Source: Balneolales bacterium (GTDB lineage Bacteria > Bacteroidota > Rhodothermia > Balneolales > Cyclonatronaceae). From it: DNA of 63,709 nucleotides. Below the pieces are notes generated by a model. The model was not told where the DNA came from. It worked only from the letters and a program-made list of their open reading frames with translations, and made no database searches. Shown piece by piece: positions 3,909-55,678 of this stretch. Each line of letters opens with the position of its first letter. Positions within the stretch are counted from its first letter, which is position 1. The stretch spans positions 1-63,709 of the forward strand of contig JAFIET010000013.1 of the NCBI GenBank assembly GCA_020832405.1, written 5' to 3'. A program made the translations under genes and the position numbers.

Positions 3909-3962
3909 GAAAAAATGAGCGTTTCCTCCTGCCTCCGCCTGCGCTTGCCTTTCTGCGCCTTC

Positions 3963-4060
3963 TTATTTTAGGGGGAACTCCGTGCGCATCACGGTCTTTC
4001 GTGCCGTTTATAACCTAAAAAACCCACGGCCAATCCCGTGCTTTTGGTTTTCTGCGCCTT
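3963..4060 (+). repeat. Dispersed intergenic repeat, copy R1
   Basis: Shares the block CTCCGTGCGCATCAC followed by TTTCGTGC, then CCCGTGCTTTT and GCGCC, with copies at 7150, 16371, 16533 and 52545. It lies in the 381-bp gap between the M28 peptidase and the DUF885 gene and has no open frame of note. The rest of this gap (4061-4289) holds a GC-rich patch with a possible GCGCCATCA/GGGATGGCGC pairing and an AT-rich leader before 4290. I see no gene in it. Confidence 0.6.
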
Positions 4061-4289
4061 AAAAAGAAACGCAAAAAACCGGCCTGGTCCGCAATAGCCG
4101 CGCGCCATCATCGGGCGTTTTGCGGGATGGCGCAGGAAGGTGTAATGATCCGGATTCAGGGTGATGCTTTTTCTGCAAACGAATATTTTGAGCTTTTTAA
4201 GCCTTTGAGCACCTATATTTAACCTTCAGATGTTGCAAAACAGCATCAGAACCAGAACCAGAACCTAACCACAATTCAGGCCCGGATTT

Positions 4290-7149: not shown

Positions 7150-7254
7150 TTTGGGAGCGCCTTCACCCCAAAAAGCAAGGGACAAGCCGTTGACTTGGGA
7201 TTTCTCACAAGCACGAAAAACAGTGATGTGCACGGAGTTTCTCCCAAAAAATAA
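7150..7254 (-). repeat. Dispersed intergenic repeat, copy R2
   Basis: On the minus strand it reads TTTTTTGGGAGAAACTCCG, then GTGCACATCACTG, CGTGCTTGTG and AATCCCAA, the same order of blocks as the other copies. It sits in the convergent gap between the PH-like gene and the porin gene, immediately next to a terminator. Confidence 0.7.
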
Positions 7255-14839: not shown

Positions 14840-16243
14840 ATGGAAAACCTGCGTTTTTTTGAACAGGTGAACCTCAATTTCGATCGTGCTGCGAAATATG
14901 TGAAGTTCACCGATGGTCTGCTTGAGCAGATCAAAGCCTGCAATACCGTATGTCATTTCACCTTCCCGCTGAAGCGGGATAACGGCTCCATCGAAACCAT
15001 CCATGCATGGCGGGCCGAGCACAGCCATCATAAGCTGCCCACCAAAGGCGGTATCCGCTACAGTATGATGGTGAACGAAGATGAGGTAAAAGCCCTCGCC
15101 GCACTCATGACCTATAAGTGTGCCGTTGTTGATGTGCCGTTTGGCGGAGCAAAAGGTGGTGTCAGAATCGACCGCCGAAACTACTCCACCGCCGAGCTTG
15201 AGCGCATCACACGACGCTTCACCTTTGAGCTCGTAAGCAAAAACTTCATTGGTCCTGATATTGACGTGCCCGCCCCCGACTACGGAACCGGCGAGCAGGA
15301 AATGGCCTGGATCGTTGATACCTACACGGCCATCAGCCCGTCTCTCAATGCTTTGGGATGCGTTACCGGCAAACCGATAGGTCTTGGCGGCATCCGTGGC
15401 CGCACGGAAGCTACCGGCCGAGGGGTATTCTTTGGGGTGAGGGAAGCCTGCGATAACAAAGAGGATATGAAAGCCCTCGGCCTTGAACCCGGTTTAGCAG
15501 GCAAACGCGTGATCGTGCAGGGCTTCGGGAATGTGGGCTATCACTCAGCCAAATATCTGATGGAAGCCGATGCCAAAATTATTGCAATCTGCGAGTGGGA
15601 CGGCGCCGTTTACAACGAAGACGGCATCGATATCATCGCGCTCGATCTTCACCGCAAAGAACACAAAACCATTACGACCTTCCCCGGGGTAACTCTCATT
15701 AAAGACAGCCGCAGCGCGATGGAGCTTGATTGCGATATTCTGGTGCCCGCCGCACTCGAAGGCCAGATCAATGCTGAAAACGCACCCCGCATCAAGGCAA
15801 AAATTATTGCAGAAGCTGCTAACGGCCCTACAACGCAGGAAGCCCACGACATCATCAAAAGCCGCGGTGCCCTGGTAATTCCTGATAATTACCTGAATGC
15901 CGGCGGGGTTACGGTTTCTTATTTTGAATGGCTCAAAAACCTTTCTCACGTTCGCTTTGGCCGGATGGACCGCCGCTTCGAGGAAAACTCAGCCCGCCGC
16001 ATGCTCGATGCCATGCAGGTGATGACCAGCAGAAGCCTCTCTGATGAGGACATTTCGAAGCTCGCACACGGCGCAAGTGAAGCTGATCTCGTAGATTCCG
16101 GCCTTGAAGACACCATGATTACAGCCTACAATGAAATCAACGAAATCCGCAAGTTTCACGGTATTGACCTGCGCACAGCAGCTTTTGTGAGCGCAATTAA
16201 AAAGGTGGGCAGTATTTATGAGCGCATGGGCATTTTCCCGTAA
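14840..16243 (+). CDS. Glutamate dehydrogenase (Glu/Leu/Phe/Val dehydrogenase family)
   Basis: A 467-residue cytoplasmic enzyme. It carries out reversible oxidative deamination of glutamate to 2-oxoglutarate and ammonia with NAD(P). The substrate-binding and catalytic lysines lie in [13 protein letters not shown] and [15 protein letters not shown]. The dinucleotide fold starts at [10 protein letters not shown] (GxGxxG). [16 protein letters not shown] and EAANGPTT are typical of the family. The length fits GDH rather than leucine dehydrogenase, but the latter subfamilies cannot be excluded by eye. It starts with ATG 104 bp after the helicase stop. With gltBD at the right edge it forms part of the ammonia/glutamate node. 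Confidence 0.92.
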
Positions 16244-16331
16244 GCGAATCTGAGCCAGCGAGGAAAACACACCACTCCTGAGCGGTCAAACTGTAAAGGG
16301 GCGCATCGAAGGCCGGGAAGCTGATCATCTC

Positions 16332-16356
16332 TTGCCTTGCCTTGCCTTGCCTTGTC
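16332..16356. repeat. (CTTGC)n short tandem repeat
   Basis: Four to five uninterrupted copies of a 5-bp unit (CTTGC) directly before the inverted repeat element, in non-coding sequence. Confidence 0.8.
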
Positions 16357-16370
16357 CGTCTCCCTCTGAT

Positions 16371-16462
16371 TTTTTTTGGGGGGGGAAACGCCTTGCGCAT
16401 CACTGGCTGCAGTGCTTGTGGAAAATCCCAAATCGGCGGATTAGCCCGTGCTTTTGCGCCTG
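16371..16462 (+). repeat. Dispersed intergenic repeat, copy R3 (left arm of a long inverted repeat)
   Basis: Reads T-run, G-run, GAAACGCC, TTGCGCATCACTGGCTGCAG, then ATCCCAAATCGGCGGATTAG and CCCGTGCTTTT. The copy at 16533-16626 is its inverted partner, with exact matches of about 19 and 31 bases. Found between gdh and htpX. Confidence 0.8.
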
Positions 16463-16532
16463 TTACTCGCGGATTGGGTGTACCCTGCCGGATTTACACA
16501 GGTTTTAGGCTTACTGATGGGATAGCGAAACT

Positions 16533-16626
16533 GCCCCCCCAAAAAAAGCACGGGCTAATCCGCCGATTTGGGATGGCACGAGCAGCACTGCAGCCAGTGA
16601 TGTGCACGGAGTATTCCCAAAAATAA
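16533..16626 (-). repeat. Dispersed intergenic repeat, copy R4 (right arm)
   Basis: Reverse complement of the R3 arm. On the minus strand it begins TTATTTTTGGGAATACTCCG and carries GTGCACATCACTGGCTGCAG, then the exact block shared with R3. At its outer end it matches copies R1 and R2 (CTCCGTGCACATCAC) better than R3 does, so R3 is the more decayed arm there. Confidence 0.8.
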
Positions 16627-16683
16627 CAGCACCGGGAATGCCAAAGCATACTGACTTCAGCCTGCAACGGTGCGGACAACATT

Positions 16684-16726
16684 AAAAAAAGGCCGCTGTT
16701 CCGAACGGAGCAGCGGCCTTTTTTTG
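16684..16726. terminator. Intrinsic terminator between gdh and htpX
   Basis: A perfect 15-bp stem AAAAAAAGGCCGCTG (16684-16698) / CAGCGGCCTTTTTTT (16711-16725). It serves the minus-strand htpX group and possibly both strands. Confidence 0.9.
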
Positions 16727-16757: not shown

Positions 16758-17639
16758 TCAGGCGGCTTCGAGGGCTTTGATGCGCTCATCGAGCGGCGGA
16801 TGGCTCATAAAGAGCGCCTGAATGCCGCTGCGCTTGCCGGACGAAATGCCGAAAGCATTCATCGATTCGGGCATCTGATCGGGAACCTGCGACTCAGCCT
16901 TGAGGTGCTTAAGGGCACTGATCATGCCGGCTTTGCCGCCAAGTTCGGCTCCTGCGCGGTCGGCCACGAACTCGCGCTTGCGGGAGAACCACATCACGAT
17001 CATGGCAGCCAGAATACCGAGGATAATCTGCATCACAATGGTTACAACAAAATAACCGATGCCGTAGCCGCTGTCATTTTTAAGAATCTGACGGTCCACG
17101 ATATGGCCGATGATGCGGGCAAAAAACATCACGAAGGTGTTAAGCACACCCTGAATGAGCGTGAGCGTAATCATGTCGCCGTTTGCTACGTGACCAATCT
17201 CGTGGCCCATAACGGCACGGATTTCGTCTCTGCTGTAGCGCTCAAGCATACCGGTGCTGATTGCAACGAGGGCGTTGTTGCGGTTCCAGCCGGTTGCAAA
17301 GGCATTGGCCTGCTGCATGGGGAAAATCGCAACTTCGGGCATGTCGATGCCGGCACGGGTGGCCATGTCGCGTACTTCGTTAAGCAGCCAGCGCTCGGTT
17401 TGCGTGCGCGGATCCTGAATAATCTGGGCTTTGGTGCTCCACTTCGCAATCGGCTTGGACAGCAGCAGCGAAATCACGGAGCCTATCATCCCGAAAACAA
17501 AACAGATGATGAGCAGGTTGGTGAGGTTAAGCGCCCCCGTTTCATCAAGGGTTGAGCCTACCCCCAAAATGCTCAGCACAATACCCGCAACAAAAATAAT
17601 TGCAAGGTTGGTAAGCAGAAATAAGGCTATTCTGAACAT
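16758..17639 (-). CDS. htpX: Membrane zinc protease HtpX
   Basis: A 293-residue M48-family protease of the inner membrane. There are two N-terminal membrane segments (about 4-28 and 40-60), the active site MGHEIGHVANGD with the HEIGH zinc motif, two further hydrophobic segments (about 150-215), and the third ligand region FVADRAGAELGG. HtpX degrades misfolded membrane proteins together with FtsH. Length is the family's usual. It is the last gene of a minus-strand series (Nudix-gmhB-HAD-queA-pheA-htpX), 66 bp after pheA, and is followed by a strong terminator. Confidence 0.96.
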   Translation of the reverse strand: MFRIALFLLTNLAIIFVAGIVLSILGVGSTLDETGALNLTNLLIICFVFGMIGSVISLLLSKPIAKWSTKAQIIQDPRTQTERWLLNEVRDMATRAGIDMPEVAIFPMQQANAFATGWNRNNALVAISTGMLERYSRDEIRAVMGHEIGHVANGDMITLTLIQGVLNTFVMFFARIIGHIVDRQILKNDSGYGIGYFVVTIVMQIILGILAAMIVMWFSRKREFVADRAGAELGGKAGMISALKHLKAESQVPDQMPESMNAFGISSGKRSGIQALFMSHPPLDERIKALEAA

Positions 17640-32528: not shown

Positions 32529-34952
32529 ATGGAAGCAACCCTCTCCCGCATCCGATTCGATATCAAAGGCATGAGCTGCGCGAGCTGCGTGAGCGGTGTC
32601 GAAAAAGCCCTCAGCCGGGTTGAGGGCGTCGAAGAAGTTTCCGTAAATCTGGCGACCAATCAGGCCGAAGTGGTTTACGAGGCCGGCAAAATTTCGGAAG
32701 AGCGCCTCATGCAGGCCGTTGACGATGCCGGCTTCGAAGCCGTACTGCCCAAAACAAAAAAACAGCAGCCCGCTGAACACCGCCTGAAAATTACCGGCAT
32801 GAGCTGCGCGAGCTGCGTAACCGGTGTTGAAAAGGCCATCGGCCGGGTTCCGGGTACCCGAGACGTTTCGGTGAATCTCGCGACCGGCGAAGCCCGCTTT
32901 TTCCGGGATGAGCCCGACCTGAACCCCGTAATTGAAGCCGTAGATGCAGCGGGTTTCGAAGCAGAAGTCATCACCCGAAACACAACTCCCGCTTCACCAA
33001 CAGAGACGGAGGGCACCACTTTCCGGCGCAGGTTTTTTATCGCGCTGCCGCTGGCGCTGCTTGTAAGCGTGATGGATATGGGCCCGATGTTCATCCATGC
33101 CTGGCATGAGGCCATCCATCCGGTTATGTTTGAATGGAATCTGGCGCAGCTGCTGCTTACCGGCTTCATTATGTTTTATGCCGGGAGTCAGTTTTTTACG
33201 GGCGCATGGAAAGCGGTGAAGCGCAAAAGCGCCGACATGAACGTGCTGGTTGCCGTGGGAACCGGCGCGGCTTTCCTGTTTAGCGGTTACGCGACCTTCT
33301 TCGGGCGCGAAGGCGGTTTGGTGGAACCGATGGATGTGTACTTCGATACCGCGGCTGTGATTATCGCCCTCATTTTACTGGGCCGGTGGATGGAAGAGCG
33401 CGCCCGAAACAAAAGCCGCGATGCCCTGGGCGGGCTCCTCAAACTCACCCCGCCGCGCGCGCACCGCATCGGTGCCGGGGGGCAGCCCGAAACCATCACC
33501 CTCGATCAGGTGCGCACGGGCGATGAGCTGCTCGTGAAGGCATTTGAGCAGGTTCCGGTTGACGGCGAAGTGCTCAGCGGCAGCCCTTCGCTTGATGAAT
33601 CGATGATGACCGGTGAAAGCGTGTCGGCCGATAAAACCCCCGGTGATGCCGTAACCGGCGGCACGCGCAACACAAATCAGTCCTTCCGGATGAAGGCTAC
33701 TGCCGTAGGCGAAGATACAGCCCTGGCCCGTCTTATCGAGGCCGTGCGGCGCGCGCAGGGCTCCAAGCCGCCGATTCAGCGGCTGGTGGATAAAGTTGCC
33801 TCCGTATTCGTGCCCGTCGTAATTGTGATTGCCCTCATCACCCTGCTTGCCTGGATGTTCGCGGAAGGCGACCCCGCCAAAGCGGTGGTCAACATGGTGG
33901 CTGTGCTCATTATCGCCTGCCCCTGCGCGTTGGGTTTGGCTACGCCTACCGGCATTATGGTCGGCTCAGGCCGGGCGGCAGAGAAAGGCATCCTCATAAA
34001 AGATGCCGTTACCCTGGAAGATGCCCGAAAGGCTGACGTTATCCTCCTCGATAAAACCGGAACCCTCACCACCGGCGAAATGCAGCTCACCGGCATCTTC
34101 ACCACGGGAAGTCTGCCGGAGGAAGAGTTGCTCAGCCTTGCGGCCTCGGTCGAGCAGGAGTCTGATCACCCGATCGCGCAGGCTGTGGTGCGCTACGCAA
34201 AGCAAAAAGCGCCGCACCTGCCCCGTGCAGAAAGTACGCAGACGCAGGCCGGAACCGGCATTACCGGAGAGGTGAACGGGAAAAAGGTGCAGATTGGCTC
34301 TGTAGAGCTGCTGGGCGGGACAAGTGCGGATGTGCAGGCCCGAATCGATACCTGGCAGGAAGCCGGCCGCACGGTTCTGGTTGTGCTGGTTGACGGCGAA
34401 ACAGCAGGCCTGCTGGGCATCAGCGATGAGCCACGCGAAGATGCGGCCGCATTTGTGAAGCAGCTCAAAGCCATGAACATCATGCCGGTGATGGTTACCG
34501 GCGATCAGGAAAAAACGGCGCGTTACGTAGCCGGCAAGCTGGGCATTGAAGAAGTGCGTTTCGGCGTGAAGCCCGACGAAAAAGCGCAGATTGTGCAGCA
34601 CTATCAGCAGCAGGGCAAGCATGTTGCCATGGTGGGCGACGGCATCAACGATGCGGCGGCGCTGGTACAGGCCGACCTTGGCATAGCGCTGAGCAGCGGC
34701 ACCGACCTCGCGGTTTCATCAGCTGATATCACCATTGCCGGTGCTTCGCTCGGCAAGGTTGCCGAGGCCATCACGCTTTCCCGGAGCGTGCTCCGGATCA
34801 TCCGGCAGAACCTTTTCTGGGCCTTTGTGTACAACACTGTGGGCATACCGCTTGCGGCATTTGGCATACTCAGCCCCATGTTTGCCGCCCTTGCCATGGC
34901 CCTGAGCTCGGTGAGCGTAGTCGGCAACAGCCTGCGTATCCGGAAATTGTAA
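32529..34952 (+). CDS. copA: Copper-exporting P1B-type ATPase
   Basis: An 807-residue inner-membrane ATPase. Two N-terminal HMA domains carry GMSCASC (about 14-20 and 92-98). A-domain SGSPSLDESMMTGES, the intramembrane metal motif ACPCALGLATP, P-domain DKTGTLTTG and hinge GDGINDAAAL are present. The CPC motif with CxxC HMA domains is the P1B-1 pattern for Cu(I)/Ag(I) export from the cytoplasm. Length and motifs are normal. It starts 113 bp after the HMA-AraC regulator, and a CopZ gene lies downstream to deliver copper to it. Confidence 0.95.
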   Translation: MEATLSRIRFDIKGMSCASCVSGVEKALSRVEGVEEVSVNLATNQAEVVYEAGKISEERLMQAVDDAGFEAVLPKTKKQQPAEHRLKITGMSCASCVTGVEKAIGRVPGTRDVSVNLATGEARFFRDEPDLNPVIEAVDAAGFEAEVITRNTTPASPTETEGTTFRRRFFIALPLALLVSVMDMGPMFIHAWHEAIHPVMFEWNLAQLLLTGFIMFYAGSQFFTGAWKAVKRKSADMNVLVAVGTGAAFLFSGYATFFGREGGLVEPMDVYFDTAAVIIALILLGRWMEERARNKSRDALGGLLKLTPPRAHRIGAGGQPETITLDQVRTGDELLVKAFEQVPVDGEVLSGSPSLDESMMTGESVSADKTPGDAVTGGTRNTNQSFRMKATAVGEDTALARLIEAVRRAQGSKPPIQRLVDKVASVFVPVVIVIALITLLAWMFAEGDPAKAVVNMVAVLIIACPCALGLATPTGIMVGSGRAAEKGILIKDAVTLEDARKADVILLDKTGTLTTGEMQLTGIFTTGSLPEEELLSLAASVEQESDHPIAQAVVRYAKQKAPHLPRAESTQTQAGTGITGEVNGKKVQIGSVELLGGTSADVQARIDTWQEAGRTVLVVLVDGETAGLLGISDEPREDAAAFVKQLKAMNIMPVMVTGDQEKTARYVAGKLGIEEVRFGVKPDEKAQIVQHYQQQGKHVAMVGDGINDAAALVQADLGIALSSGTDLAVSSADITIAGASLGKVAEAITLSRSVLRIIRQNLFWAFVYNTVGIPLAAFGILSPMFAALAMALSSVSVVGNSLRIRKL

Positions 34953-41299: not shown

Positions 41300-43081
41300 A
41301 TGATGGAATGGAATAAAAAAACACTGCTGCTGCTTACTGGCGTACTGCTGACCGGACTTTTTCTGGGATGGCTGATTTTTGGCGGAAGTCATAATCATGA
41401 TGCGCATAACGGCCACGGCCACGATCATGATCACGCGCACAGCCACGGGGAAGCCGGTAACGGTTCCGCAGCTGCGGCTGAAACGGTCTGGACCTGCTCC
41501 ATGCACCCGGCCATCCGCGAGGAGGGGCCCGGGTTGTGCCCGATTTGTGCGATGGACCTTACCCCGGCTTCCGCCGATGATGGCGGCGATTTCGAGCTCA
41601 CCATGAGTGAAGCCGCCGTGCATCTTGCAGGCATCCGCACTACGGAAGTGGTGTCGGCGCAGCCGGTGCGCGAGCTTCGCCTGCCGGGCCTGGTAGTGCC
41701 CGATGAGCGCCGCCTGCACCGGGTGAGTGCCCATTTCCCCGGGCGCCTCACCTACCTGCGCACGGCTGAGACCGGCATGCAGATAAGCCGGGGTGAGCTG
41801 CTGGCGCGGGTGTATGCACCCGAACTCGTGAGTGCGCAGCAGGAGCTGCTCGAGGCGCAGCGGCTGGCAGCGCAGCACCCTGAGCTGCTGCGGGCGGCAC
41901 GGGCACGGCTGCTGCAGTGGGAGCTGAGCGAGGCGCAGATCGATGCCATCCTCGAAAGCGGACGCGTGCGGCAGGAGCTCGAAATTTTCGCCCCGGTCAG
42001 TGGCGTGCTCATGCGCCGCAATGTGGAGCAGGGCGCCTATGTAGCACAGGGCACCGTGCTGATGGAAGTGGCTGATCTCTCACAGGTGTGGCTGCGTTTC
42101 GAAGCCTGGGAGGAAGACCTGCCGTGGATCGAGACCGGCACCGAAATCAGCTGGCACCGCCGCGGCCGGGCGGGTGAGCTGAACGGGGCAGTTGTGGAGT
42201 TCATCGATCCGATGGTGGATGAGCGCACGCGCACAGCTGGCTTGCGGGCCTCGGTGAGCAACCGCGATGCGCAGCTGCGCCCCGGAGAGCTGGTGCAGGC
42301 CACGGCACGCATCACCCTGCCCCAAACACAGCTGATGGTGCCGGCAAGCGCGGTACTCTGGACCGGGCCGCGATCGGTGGTTTTTGTGGAAGACACCGAA
42401 GCCGAAACCCCGCGCTTTGAAAGCCGGGAAGTGACCCTCGGGCAGCGGGCGGGTGATTTTTTTGTGATTGAAGACGGTCTCGAGGCCGGTGAGCGGGTGG
42501 TGTTCAGCGGGGCCTTTAAGCTGGACAGCGCTTTCCAGCTGGCTGACCGCTTCAGCATGATGAACCGCGGCCCCGGGCTGCAGCCGGTGCGGCAGGGGCA
42601 CGGCGACCACGCCGAAGTACGCCGGTTCCGGGATGTACCCGAAGCATTCCGTGCCGGGCTAACCCGCCTCACCCGAACTTATCTTGAAGGCAAAGAGGCT
42701 TACGTTGAATCTGATTTCACGGCCTCGGTGCAGGCCTTTGAAGCTTTTCAGGAGCAGCTTGCCGGGCTGGAGCGGCCGCAGCTGCCGGTTGATATGGTGC
42801 AGCCGTGGCGCGGGCTCAGTCGGGCCCTTGGCGCACACGTTGAGCTGCTGCTGGCCGCCGGCGATATTGAGGACGGCCGGGCACAGTTCCGTCATCTTTC
42901 GGATCAGATGGTACTCGCCGTACGGCAGTTCGGTGTTGACGGCGTAGTGTACCATCAGTACTGCCCGATGGCCTTCGAAGACGAGGGCGCACACTGGCTC
43001 AGCGCCGAAGAGCCCATCATGAACCCTTACCTGCCGGAAATCATGCTCATGTGCGGCGATGTAATCGCGCGCATTGAGTAG
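41300..43081 (+). CDS. cusB: CusB-type periplasmic adaptor with HMBD and DUF3347 domains
   Basis: About 593 residues from the ATG at 41300 or 41303. A TTG at 41288 is less likely. Order of parts: membrane anchor (about 5-28), His-rich linker (HDAHNGHGHDHDHAHSHG), heavy-metal-binding domain (WTCSMHPAIREEGPGLCPIC), then lipoyl, barrel and beta-barrel adaptor regions (LAGIRTTEV, YAPELVSAQQELLEAQ, LMRRNVEQGAYVAQG, RTRTAGLRASVSN, VPASAVLWTG). The C-terminal DUF3347 ends HQYCPMAFEDEGAHWLSAEE...NPYLPEIMLMCG. It bridges the RND pump to the outer-membrane channel and may itself bind metal. A near-copy of its last 46 codons lies at 44086. Confidence 0.92.
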   Translation: MMEWNKKTLLLLTGVLLTGLFLGWLIFGGSHNHDAHNGHGHDHDHAHSHGEAGNGSAAAAETVWTCSMHPAIREEGPGLCPICAMDLTPASADDGGDFELTMSEAAVHLAGIRTTEVVSAQPVRELRLPGLVVPDERRLHRVSAHFPGRLTYLRTAETGMQISRGELLARVYAPELVSAQQELLEAQRLAAQHPELLRAARARLLQWELSEAQIDAILESGRVRQELEIFAPVSGVLMRRNVEQGAYVAQGTVLMEVADLSQVWLRFEAWEEDLPWIETGTEISWHRRGRAGELNGAVVEFIDPMVDERTRTAGLRASVSNRDAQLRPGELVQATARITLPQTQLMVPASAVLWTGPRSVVFVEDTEAETPRFESREVTLGQRAGDFFVIEDGLEAGERVVFSGAFKLDSAFQLADRFSMMNRGPGLQPVRQGHGDHAEVRRFRDVPEAFRAGLTRLTRTYLEGKEAYVESDFTASVQAFEAFQEQLAGLERPQLPVDMVQPWRGLSRALGAHVELLLAAGDIEDGRAQFRHLSDQMVLAVRQFGVDGVVYHQYCPMAFEDEGAHWLSAEEPIMNPYLPEIMLMCGDVIARIE

Positions 43082-43093
43082 GGGCCGGGGGAA
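42941..43093 (+). repeat. Direct repeat, copy A (end of cusB)
   Basis: The last 140 bases of cusB plus 13 bases beyond its stop match 44086-44238 with about 6 differences in 153. The two copies bracket the toxin-antitoxin module. Confidence 0.9.
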
Positions 43094-44018: not shown

Positions 44019-44085
44019 AGCGAAGTAGGTTTGCTACAAAGGCATGGCGCCTGTTTGTGCTGAGGGAACTTGAAATTGAAATGAA

Positions 44086-44238
44086 GGCGTCGTGTACCAC
44101 CAATACTGCCCGATGGCCTTCGAAGACGAGGGCGCACACCGGCTCAGCGCCGAAGAGCCCATCATGAACCCCTACCTGCCGGAAATCATGCTCATGTGCG
44201 GCGATGTGATCGCGCGCATTGAGTAGGGGCCGGGGGAA
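44086..44238 (+). pseudogene. Truncated copy of the cusB 3' end (DUF3347 part)
   Basis: Translates in frame to GVVYHQYCPMAFEDEGAHRL and onward to MCGDVIARIE and the same stop, matching the last ~46 residues of CusB. Five of six base differences are synonymous. The sixth changes the conserved Trp of the WLS motif to Arg. There is no start, signal or upstream gene body, so it cannot be expressed as a protein by itself. Confidence 0.9.
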
Positions 44239-52544: not shown

Positions 52545-52590
52545 TCTTTTTTTGGGTGGGAATTCCGTGGGCATCGCTTGTTTTCGCGTC
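52545..52590 (+). repeat. Dispersed intergenic repeat, partial copy R5
   Basis: TTTTTTTGGGTGGGAATTCC, then GTGGGCATCGCTTG and TTTTCGCG match the first ~45 bases of R1-R4 (TTTGGG, GAAACTCCGTGCGCATCAC, TTTCGTG). The second half of the repeat is missing. Confidence 0.5.
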
Positions 52591-53332
52591 AGCCTGATAA
52601 ACCCTGCGCCAGGAGCGTTTTTGGGATTGTTGATCAGTAGGGTCTTCCGCAGATTTTGCAGGGGGCGAATCCGTGATGTTCGCACAGAAAGAGAGCCCGG
52701 AGTTACAGATCTGTTCATTTCCCGCATTATTATTCTGACCGGCAGGGGTTAACGAAGGGAGTAGGGCTCAGGAAAAGGTTTATTCTGCAGACCCGTGGCA
52801 TAAAGCGGTTCTGCATATGAGCCCACACAACGGATTACAGATAATTGAGGAATCCCTAAAAAAAACGGGAATCTCCGGCAGCTGCATTTTTTTATTGTGA
52901 GCCGGTGTAACAGGTAATACCTGTGCCGGCGGCATCTGCCCTATTTTGAAACTTACGACAGGAAATGTGGGGATAAAATGTGACACATCCGGTGAGGCGA
53001 ATAGTTCAGGCCCGGGTGTTTTTCCGGCAAAAAAGGGTGCTGTCTGAGGGGCTGATGTCGTTTTAAAGTACTCGCAGAACCACCGGCCTGAAATAGTGCT
53101 TTAGTGCACAGAATGAAGGGGGGGCTTTCTGAAAAAAAGAGATTAGAATTCGATCTGAAAGGAGCTGTGGCTGCTTTACCGGTCTGCTCCGGGACTGGTT
53201 TGTTAGGATGGGATAAAAAAACTATTTTAATATAAGTTCAATATTATAATAACAGCATTTCGTTAATGATCCTTTGTATGGCACCGATACTTCGAAAAGC
53301 AAACGGCATTAGCGGTTTCATTTAGAGTTAGA

Positions 53333-53341: not shown

Positions 53342-55678
53342 ATGATCTACAAAACGAGCGTAATACTTTGTGTTTTGATGCTGCTGCTTGGTACAGCGAA
53401 CAGTAACGCCCAATTCGCCGGCGGTTCGGGCACTGCAGATGCCCCCTGGGAGGTAGCAACATTACAGCACCTGAACAATGTGAGGAATTACCTGGGCGAA
53501 GACCATGCAGATAAGCACTTCATACAGACTGCGGACATTGATGCAGCCGGGAATACGTGGGAACCAATCGGAAGCAGAAGCGCAAAATTTATGGGGACAT
53601 ATCATGGAAATGACTTCACGATTAGCAATATCACAATTTACAGGCCGGAGGCTGATGATAATGGCTTGTTCGGGTACCTCGAAGGCGCCCGGGTCAGTAA
53701 TCTGAACATTACAGATATCCAAATCAATGGCAGCAGGTATAGTGGCGGTTTGGCCGGAAGAGTTCACTCGTCGGTGCTCAGTTTTATATCCGTTACGGGA
53801 AGTATTGTGGGCTATGATGATGATACGGGCGGGGTGATTGGTCTGGTGCGAAACAGCAGTCAGCTAAGCTGGCTGAGCGCGGATGTTACTGTAGTTGGCC
53901 GTGAAGCAACGGGCGGACTGATTGGCCGCCAATGGACTTCGGAAGTACGGTATTCGTATGCCAAAGGAACGGTAACAGGTATGTCGCTTACAGGTGGTCT
54001 GATAGGATATACCTCCTCGCTTGTGGCCGACAGTTATACAACGGCCGACGTTACGGGAACTTCCTCCGTTGGCGGTTTTACAGGGTCAAACTGGGGCGGC
54101 TCTGTTCACAGGAGCTACAGCACCGGAGCGGTAGCCGGTGAAAGCAATGTTGGCGGTTTCGCAGGAAGAAGTGATTCGTACAGCCAGACCGCGTACAGTT
54201 TTTGGAATACCGAAACATCCGGTCAGGAAACAAGTGCAGGCGGTTCGGGCGTAACCGGCTTAACGACGGCAGAGTTAAAGCAGCAATCAACCTTTGCAGC
54301 CTTTAACTTCTATTCGGCCTGGCAAATTAGCGAAGGCTCAGGCTACCCGGAATTTCAGGATTTCAGCGTGTACACCTTGCCTGAATACACTGAGCTGGAA
54401 AACCTTTCCGGCAGCGGTACTGAGCACGACCCCTACATTATCTCCACCATTCATGAACTAAACGCCGTAAGGCAGGATGTGACCGCTCACTACAGGCTTG
54501 CCGAAAATCTGGACCTGAAACCGAGTGTTGTCTGGAATATGGGGCAGGGCTGGGAACCCTTCGGGGATGCTTCAAACTGGTTTGCCGGTGTTTTTGACGG
54601 TAACGGCAAAATCATCACAGGCCTGGCTGTAAACCGGCCGGGAACCAATAATCAGGGGTTATTTGGCTACCTCAGGGAGGCTGAAGTCGCGGATGTAAAT
54701 CTGGCTGATGTGCAGGTTTATGGCATGAGATATACCGGCGGTTTAGCCGGAACAGCGCATTCGTCACACTTAAGCATTATATCGGTCACGGGAAATATTG
54801 CAGGCCATGACGACGATACGGGTGGGGTAATTGGCCTTGTGCGAAACAACAGTATGCTAAGCCGGCTGAGCGCAGATGTTAATGTTATGGGCCGTGATGC
54901 AACGGGCGGACTGATTGGCCGCCAATGGACTTCAGAAGTACGGTATTCGTATGCCAAAGGAACGGTAACAGGTATGTCGCTGACAGGTGGCCTGACAGGA
55001 TATACCTCCTCGCTGGTGGCCGATAGTTATACAACGGCCGACGTTACGGGAACTACCTCCGTTGGCGGTTTTACAGGTTCAAACTGGGGCGGCACTGTTC
55101 ACAGGAGCTACAGCACCGGAGCGGTAGTCGGTGAAAGCAATGTTGGCGGTTTCGCAGGAAGAAGTGATGTTTACAGTGAGGCCCTAAACAGTTTTTGGAA
55201 TACCGAAACATCCGGTCAGGAAACAAGTGCAGGCGGTTCGGGCGTAACCGGCTTAACGACGGCGGACATGACCTTCCCGTACGCAACAGGTGTTTACGCA
55301 GAATGGGACTTCGACACCATCTGGTCACATGATGAAGACCATTCCGTTAACGCAGGCTATCCGCATATTGATGAAGGCCTGCCAACGTCAGCAGAAAACG
55401 AAACAGATGTACCACGGATAGTTAAGCTTCATCAAAACTACCCCAACCCGTTTAACCCTGTCACCAATATCCGGTATGAACTGCCGCAACAGCAGGAGGT
55501 GCGGCTGGAAGTATATAATGTGCTGGGCCGCCGGGTAGCGGTACTCGTAAGCGGCACTCAGCCTGCCGGCTACCATACCATTCAGTTCGATGCAAGCCGC
55601 CTTGCAAGTGGCATGTACCTTTACAGATTACAAGCCGGCAGCGTGGTGCAAACCCATAAGATGATGCTGGTAAGGTAG
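53342..55678 (+). CDS. Secreted GLUG-repeat protein with T9SS type A C-terminal sorting domain
   Basis: A 778-residue exported protein. A signal peptide (about 1-24) ends SNAQ. Residues about 28-340 and 350-680 are two nearly parallel blocks of GLUG-type repeats (GLFGYLEGARVSNLNI, GGLAGRVHSS, GGVIGLVRN, GGLIGRQWTS, GGFTGSNWG, GGFAGRSD), a parallel beta-helix fold typical of surface adhesins. The last ~80 residues start NYPNPFNPVTNIRYELP and end YLYRLQAGSVVQTHKMML, the type A signal used for type IX secretion and surface attachment. The two blocks are offset by exactly 993 bp at the DNA level, with parts almost identical. Role: probably surface adhesion or S-layer-like; inferred. Confidence 0.9.
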   Translation: MIYKTSVILCVLMLLLGTANSNAQFAGGSGTADAPWEVATLQHLNNVRNYLGEDHADKHFIQTADIDAAGNTWEPIGSRSAKFMGTYHGNDFTISNITIYRPEADDNGLFGYLEGARVSNLNITDIQINGSRYSGGLAGRVHSSVLSFISVTGSIVGYDDDTGGVIGLVRNSSQLSWLSADVTVVGREATGGLIGRQWTSEVRYSYAKGTVTGMSLTGGLIGYTSSLVADSYTTADVTGTSSVGGFTGSNWGGSVHRSYSTGAVAGESNVGGFAGRSDSYSQTAYSFWNTETSGQETSAGGSGVTGLTTAELKQQSTFAAFNFYSAWQISEGSGYPEFQDFSVYTLPEYTELENLSGSGTEHDPYIISTIHELNAVRQDVTAHYRLAENLDLKPSVVWNMGQGWEPFGDASNWFAGVFDGNGKIITGLAVNRPGTNNQGLFGYLREAEVADVNLADVQVYGMRYTGGLAGTAHSSHLSIISVTGNIAGHDDDTGGVIGLVRNNSMLSRLSADVNVMGRDATGGLIGRQWTSEVRYSYAKGTVTGMSLTGGLTGYTSSLVADSYTTADVTGTTSVGGFTGSNWGGTVHRSYSTGAVVGESNVGGFAGRSDVYSEALNSFWNTETSGQETSAGGSGVTGLTTADMTFPYATGVYAEWDFDTIWSHDEDHSVNAGYPHIDEGLPTSAENETDVPRIVKLHQNYPNPFNPVTNIRYELPQQQEVRLEVYNVLGRRVAVLVSGTQPAGYHTIQFDASRLASGMYLYRLQAGSVVQTHKMMLVR
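53801..54270 (+). repeat. Intragenic direct repeat, unit A (GLUG gene)
   Basis: Matches 54794-55263 with constant offset 993 bp and no indels. Especially from 53903 onward the two units differ at only a handful of positions. Confidence 0.9.
54794..55263 (+). repeat. Intragenic direct repeat, unit B (GLUG gene)
   Basis: Second copy of the 53801 unit, inside the same gene and in frame (993 bp = 331 codons). Confidence 0.9.

Follow-up and report, generated by a model that had tools for sequence, protein, structure and literature searches.

The 63,709-nucleotide window (the whole stretch of DNA analysed) carries a gdh-like gene for a Glu/Leu/Phe/Val dehydrogenase (14840–16243, + strand; PF00208 and PF02812) and a gene for an M48 peptidase that is presumably HtpX-like (16758–17639, − strand; PF01435), and these two genes converge on an intergenic region that holds a long inverted repeat. 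An inverted-repeat search placed the exact arms at 16425–16455 and 16544–16574, where 31 of 31 bases are complementary, and outer arms of 35 nt at 16382–16416 and 16584–16618, where 30 of 35 positions pair (86%). The outer arms include a 19-base exact run reported in an earlier, sequence-only reading of this DNA, which had also described the convergent genes and the facing arms correctly. The centre, put there at roughly 75 bases, measures 88 nt between the exact arms and ~70 nt between that reading's own outer limits. That reading had further proposed a very long hairpin, and folding predicts such a structure: as RNA, positions 16366–16640 reach −150.3 kcal/mol versus −90.4 ± 5.3 kcal/mol (z = −11.4), and none of 200 dinucleotide shuffles folded as well.

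We found that the inverted repeat consists of a directional intergenic repeat of about 81 bp that is present twice, its two copies placed back to back. Arm 1 occupies 16374–16455 on the − strand (65.7 bits with nhmmer) and is read from right to left, its AAAAAGC end lying at 16455 and its CCCCAAAA end at 16374; R1, a sequence-only model built from 64 copies of two genomes, scores it at 70.3 bits over 16380–16455. Arm 2 occupies 16543–16623 on the + strand and reads from left to right (67.7 bits with nhmmer, 73.3 bits with R1), which leaves a spacer at 16456–16542; the spacers of other pairs have no conserved sequence by eye. The arms are unlike in the middle, where arm 1 has TTTTCCACA and arm 2 has TGGCACGAGC, a difference that had previously been noticed at their tips. 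As had also been stated, they match other places in the genome, with 76 BLAST matches when both arms are counted. A Rfam search of the window returned nothing at the gathering score, the weak matches listed all lying below it, and in sequence the repeat is unrelated to any family at that score.

Outside the repeat, a terminator-like hairpin lies at 16684–16725 (20-nt inverted repeat, 95%, 2-nt loop), with an A run before it and a T run after it; in the terminator scan it was called for the − strand alone. Tandem CTTGC/CCTTG units were also seen at 16331–16354, between the gdh stop codon and arm 1.

The repeat family and its distribution

The repeat unit is non-palindromic, with the core 5'-AAAAAGCAnGGGatnntCCGccGATTTGGGAT...GCACgaaAGACmGTGATGtgCACGGAGTTtCCCCcAAAA-3' followed by a loosely conserved 3' tail. 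Conserved columns fall into the blocks AAAAAGCAnGG, CCGnnGATTTGGGAT, GCAC, GTGATG and CGGAGTTtCCCC, and between the blocks the sequence is very variable. The 3' tail is real: a model trained on one half of the 3' flanks exceeded 3 bits in 24 of the 58 flanks that had been held out, and did so in just 1 of 58 controls taken at a distance and in none of 58 reverse complements. On the 5' side the motif AGCGCC was present in 17 of 114 flanks, versus 2 and 1 in two control stretches, and the held-out test of the 5' flank failed (0 of 57).

A first profile, made from BLAST matches, identified 52 copies in the stretches examined, 51 of them strong. With R1 we found 94 copies in the genome of the window and at least 150 in the one-contig genome of a sister (G001), the latter figure being a lower bound because all 150 candidates scored matched the model. 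Mean identity between copies is 0.71 in the window's genome and 0.67 in G001. The same search recovered 0 copies from four other genomes of the genus, and the repeat was present in 2 of 128 genomes of the order and in 2 of 394 in a phylum sample, both under stricter filters that lose weak matches. The relatives found via gdh are Balneolia/Balneolales MAGs, and the repeat probably spread in the common ancestor of the window's species and its sister. Exact-pattern searches gave 0 matches in genome_contigs, with a pattern that fits 19 of 51 own copies and with near records possibly omitted, and 0 in viral_contigs, with a pattern that fits 20 of 51. Among the G001 copies there is a subfamily in which TGAGACCG replaces TCCGCCG, linked with GCTCTCGG or GCTCACGG (A1 columns 17–21 and 63–67; e.g. 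L072, L074, L077 and L095).

BOX, RUP, ERIC and Correia elements are larger interspersed intergenic repeats, and the present repeat is like them in being short, non-coding, intergenic, multicopy and lineage-specific. In general features it differs in that its consensus has no terminal inverted repeat and in that no target duplication was found. The listings of our literature search contained no description of the ~81-bp repeat, and the word 'repeat' is absent from the main text, as far as it was available, of a paper on a soda-lake Balneolaeota isolate (PMC6243061).

Orientation of single and paired copies

Orientation with respect to genes was assessed for 104 copies, of which 7 were set aside as overlapping ORFs of at least 200 codons (a crude call) and 2 for lack of a gene beyond their 3' end. 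In the window's genome the 3' end of a copy faces a gene stop in 38 cases and a gene start in 10 (p = 6e-5). The corresponding counts in G001 were 25 and 22 (p = 0.77), so the gene-end bias is shown for the window's genome only. A second bias was seen in G001, where 99 of the 150 copies listed are co-oriented with the replication fork (p = 1e-4), the origin and terminus having been placed solely by the GC skew of 42 stretches. KOPS and Chi are polar chromosome sites. In G001 the repeat shares with them an orientation that follows the fork, but it is far longer, far less numerous and just two thirds oriented.

The arrangement between gdh and htpX recurs at other loci, as the sequence-only reading had anticipated. 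Taking as close pairs all neighbours separated by under 600 bp within the stretches examined, we found that 19 of 19 are ordered (−)(+), at 10 places in the window's genome and 9 in G001 (at L089, one of the two copies is a partial match of 23 bits). In every pair the AAAAAGC ends point inward and the CCCCAAAA ends outward, across gaps of 31–489 bp. By a crude ORF call, 10 of these pairs lie between convergent genes, 3 between divergent and 3 between tandem genes, with 3 unresolved; since pairs also occur at divergent and tandem genes, the order cannot be put down to gene convergence alone. At greater distances the order varies: four neighbours 679–1403 bp apart comprise one (−)(−), two (+)(−) and one (−)(+) at 918 bp, and a fifth set of neighbours, 1303 bp apart, is (−)(+). 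Only 7 pairs below 600 bp, all (−)(+), were found among the 150 copies listed for G001, so most copies are single.

Shared junctions, empty sites and the case for selection

Flanking genes were used to pair up copies across the two genomes. Of 27 queried loci of the window's genome, 25 could be located in G001; a copy is present there at 11 of these and absent at 14. The copy-less junctions, in some of which synteny is broken, include one 28-column remnant (16.8 bits). As a copy is common to just 11 of 25 unbiased junctions, gain or loss is continuing. Within the window, the copy at 7170–7249 (+ strand) has a counterpart at the same junction of G001 in the same orientation, the copy at 3966–4045 (− strand) corresponds to a pair there, and 52550–52604 (− strand) is a weak partial match to the repeat (20.4 bits, or 15.4 bits with R1).

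Together with loci considered earlier, some of them biased because the G001 stretches had been chosen for their copies, the unbiased loci gave 19 matched copies. Their core identity (0.59–0.80, mean 0.68) is not above that of unrelated copies. They are identical at 559 of 608 conserved columns (92%) and at 253 of 577 variable columns (44%); non-orthologous copies have identities of 0.925 and 0.394, respectively. For comparison, four-fold degenerate sites are identical between the genomes at 76 of 197 positions in gdh and 81 of 142 in htpX. The 60-bp 5' flanks of matched copies have a mean identity of 0.34 (18 measured) versus 0.32 in unmatched flanks, and the 3' flanks one of 0.50 (0.37–0.90) versus 0.32, a rise that fits the 3' tail together with nearby coding sequence. 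Orientation agrees at 15 of 15 junctions with one copy per genome; junctions with pairs were left out of this count, as the fitting arm was chosen there. Fit to the model is equal in shared (mean 68.2 bits, n = 12) and unshared copies (67.1 bits, n = 19), and detection favours well-kept copies. Base-level empty sites could not be read against G001, intergenic DNA being too diverged.

At such neutral divergence unselected copies would seldom be recognisable. Selection in place is the simplest reading of the matched copies; copying between repeats or repeated insertion at one place could imitate it. Key columns persist at shared junctions whereas variable columns and the sequence 5' of the copies have been replaced, which allows function to be argued for individual copies, in a class of small interspersed bacterial repeats that are often read as junk or hairpins.

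The gdh–htpX site itself is empty in relatives, as the earlier reading had suggested might be checked. Three congeners have convergent gdh and htpX with no match to the repeat in the named records searched, and the distance between the aligned gene ends is 108, 129 and 123 bp in them versus 514 bp here. To the eye, they carry a terminator-type hairpin alone. Three further named records (L112, L113 and L141) have the same gaps, probably come from the same genomes and were left out of the count, and no gdh was found next to htpX in G005. The two genes are separated in G001, with htpX at 327.8 kb and gdh, in opposite sense, at 385.6 kb, a layout that is uninformative on the former presence of a pair. 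The same insertion-sequence-like stretch was observed beside both genes in G001 (L051/L102 at htpX; L101, 1–1972, at gdh), which fits an inversion of ~58 kb with one breakpoint in the gdh–htpX gap.

Our best reading is that the repeat is a one-way element scattered among intergenic regions, in part maintained where it stands and, in the window's genome, biased to the 3' ends of genes. With close to even confidence, we propose that it is a protein-bound gene-end or boundary site whose copies are kept by selection. The copies would be one-way sites recognised by a candidate sequence-specific protein, and they might mark the ends of genes or insulate them; where genes converge, as gdh and htpX do, each gene would be faced by one copy, and the long hairpin would be mainly a by-product. 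We infer protein binding as most likely since it is sequence, not a fold, that is conserved. Against a selected site weigh the absence of the gene-end bias in G001, the junctions that lack a copy there, the slight folding tendency of single copies and the fact that relatives manage without the repeat. Were the proposal true, the repeat would be a recently started case of a dispersed repeat turned intergenic signal, and the four genomes of the genus from which no copy was recovered would serve as controls. It is rather unlikely, in our judgement, that it further represents a new type of directional DNA site between genes, that is, a protein-bound ~81-bp element of one lineage, present at 100–150 junctions, selected, fork-oriented, gene-end-oriented here and facing outward in pairs.

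Mobility and known repeat families

The repeat could instead be a selfish, non-autonomous mobile element (REP- or MITE-like), moved in trans by a putative enzyme and useless to the host, with pairs arising where a further copy tends to insert next to an existing one, in fixed orientation. This is possible, if on balance doubtful. It would accommodate the lineage-specific spread to about 100–150 places, the 14 of 25 placed junctions that are copy-less in G001 and the empty gdh–htpX site of relatives. IS200/IS605 elements insert into one strand at the replication fork, and one-strand insertion there would give the excess of listed G001 copies that run with it. In addition, five G001 genes exceed the cut-off for the Y1 transposase family (PF01797). 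The window's own draft genome, in which we found no PF01797 gene, argues the other way, as does the finding that the old copies at shared junctions match the consensus no worse than the unshared copies do. Four of the G001 Y1 genes were tested, and all pass the NCBIfam cut-off for IS200/IS605 and fail the REP-associated one. These genes were rejected as the source of the repeat, the flanks of the four loci being unlike it; matches to the repeat, two of them weak, occur near three of the four in no fixed arrangement. At L217, a palindrome-like repeat unlike the 81-bp one was seen on both sides of an IS200/IS605-type Y1 gene, as REPs flank RAYT genes.

The proposal that the pair is a transposition substrate found no support in the flanks of single copies. 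A shared run of at least 7 bases flanks 7 of 70 single copies, where 7.7 would be expected, and with direct repeats at chance level there is no standard mark of transposition. The copy at 3966–4045 has the same 12 bases on both sides (3958–4062), the longest match among the 70 single copies, and one of ten listed shuffles also reached this length.

Membership in the REP/BIME/REPIN class, also suggested earlier, is not borne out. There are shared features: some 100 intergenic copies or more, close copies forming inverted pairs around a spacer and, in the window's genome, a preference for gene ends. In the part of PMC3116915 available, REPs are described as ~20–60 bp long with a palindromic core and REPINs as doublets that are better conserved than singlets. 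The ~81-bp unit, by contrast, has no conserved palindrome, its singlets prevail, no Y1 transposase was found in its own genome, and its doublets are less conserved than its singlets (64.9 bits, n = 16, versus 68.8 bits, n = 35; p = 0.012).

Folding of single and paired copies

Single copies have no consensus fold (−0.53 kcal/mol). Individually they fold slightly better than shuffles (mean z of −0.47 and −0.46, with 10 and 7 of 104 copies below −2), and RNAalifold under other settings gave an outer stem of 6–7 pairs for 51 copies, its arms hardly varying. A conserved RNA fold or pseudoknot was considered and rejected: mutual information coupled columns 19 and 62 (C-G to A-T), a signal that accompanies the G001 subfamily, and the pairs neighbouring these columns fail in most copies. 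Neighbouring terminator hairpins were likewise rejected as a target of the repeat, a score of at least 18 occurring beside only 8 of 100 copies.

In 16 of the 19 pairs, compared with unrelated copies of the same genome, paired arms were somewhat more alike, and the effect is weak in most pairs. By overall identity the mean rank over the 16 pairs was 0.28 (P = 0.0009), the window pair not standing out (23% of copy pairs reach its level of likeness). When pairs are judged by their longest exact run, the 31 bases of the window pair are exceptional (mid-p 0.0075), as are two other pairs (0.0015 and 0.011), and the remaining 13 are ordinary (mean mid-p over 16 pairs 0.389, P = 0.06). This likeness may come from copying between arms, shared origin or selection for pairing.

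That the hairpin itself, as RNA or DNA, is the working unit, whether as a two-way transcription barrier, an RNA stabiliser or an RNase III target, strikes us as improbable. The very stable fold of the window pair speaks for it, along with the three long exact runs, the overall likeness of paired arms and the position of 10 of 16 resolved pairs between convergent genes. Spacers that vary from 31 to 489 bp, the 13 pairs with ordinary runs and the terminator-like hairpin already present at the site speak against it, and since most copies are single and without a conserved fold, the hairpin is doubtful as a functional unit and is probably not the main point of the pair. The pair resembles an intrinsic terminator in its place between convergent genes and in its capacity to form a hairpin; it differs in having arms of ~80 bases set 88 apart rather than a short stem and loop, and the terminator scan found none within these arms, a separate hairpin being present.

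Assembly error, collapse or chance is scarcely credible as the origin of the pair, even though its genome is a 188-contig draft, since both arms match a 94-copy family, the arrangement recurs 19 times in two genomes, one of them in a single contig, and relatives have the site empty. The window also contains three unrelated direct repeats, of 157 nt (96%; 42937–43093 and 44082–44238), 300 nt (83%; 53714–54013 and 54707–55006) and 90 nt (81%; 32568–32657 and 32796–32885).
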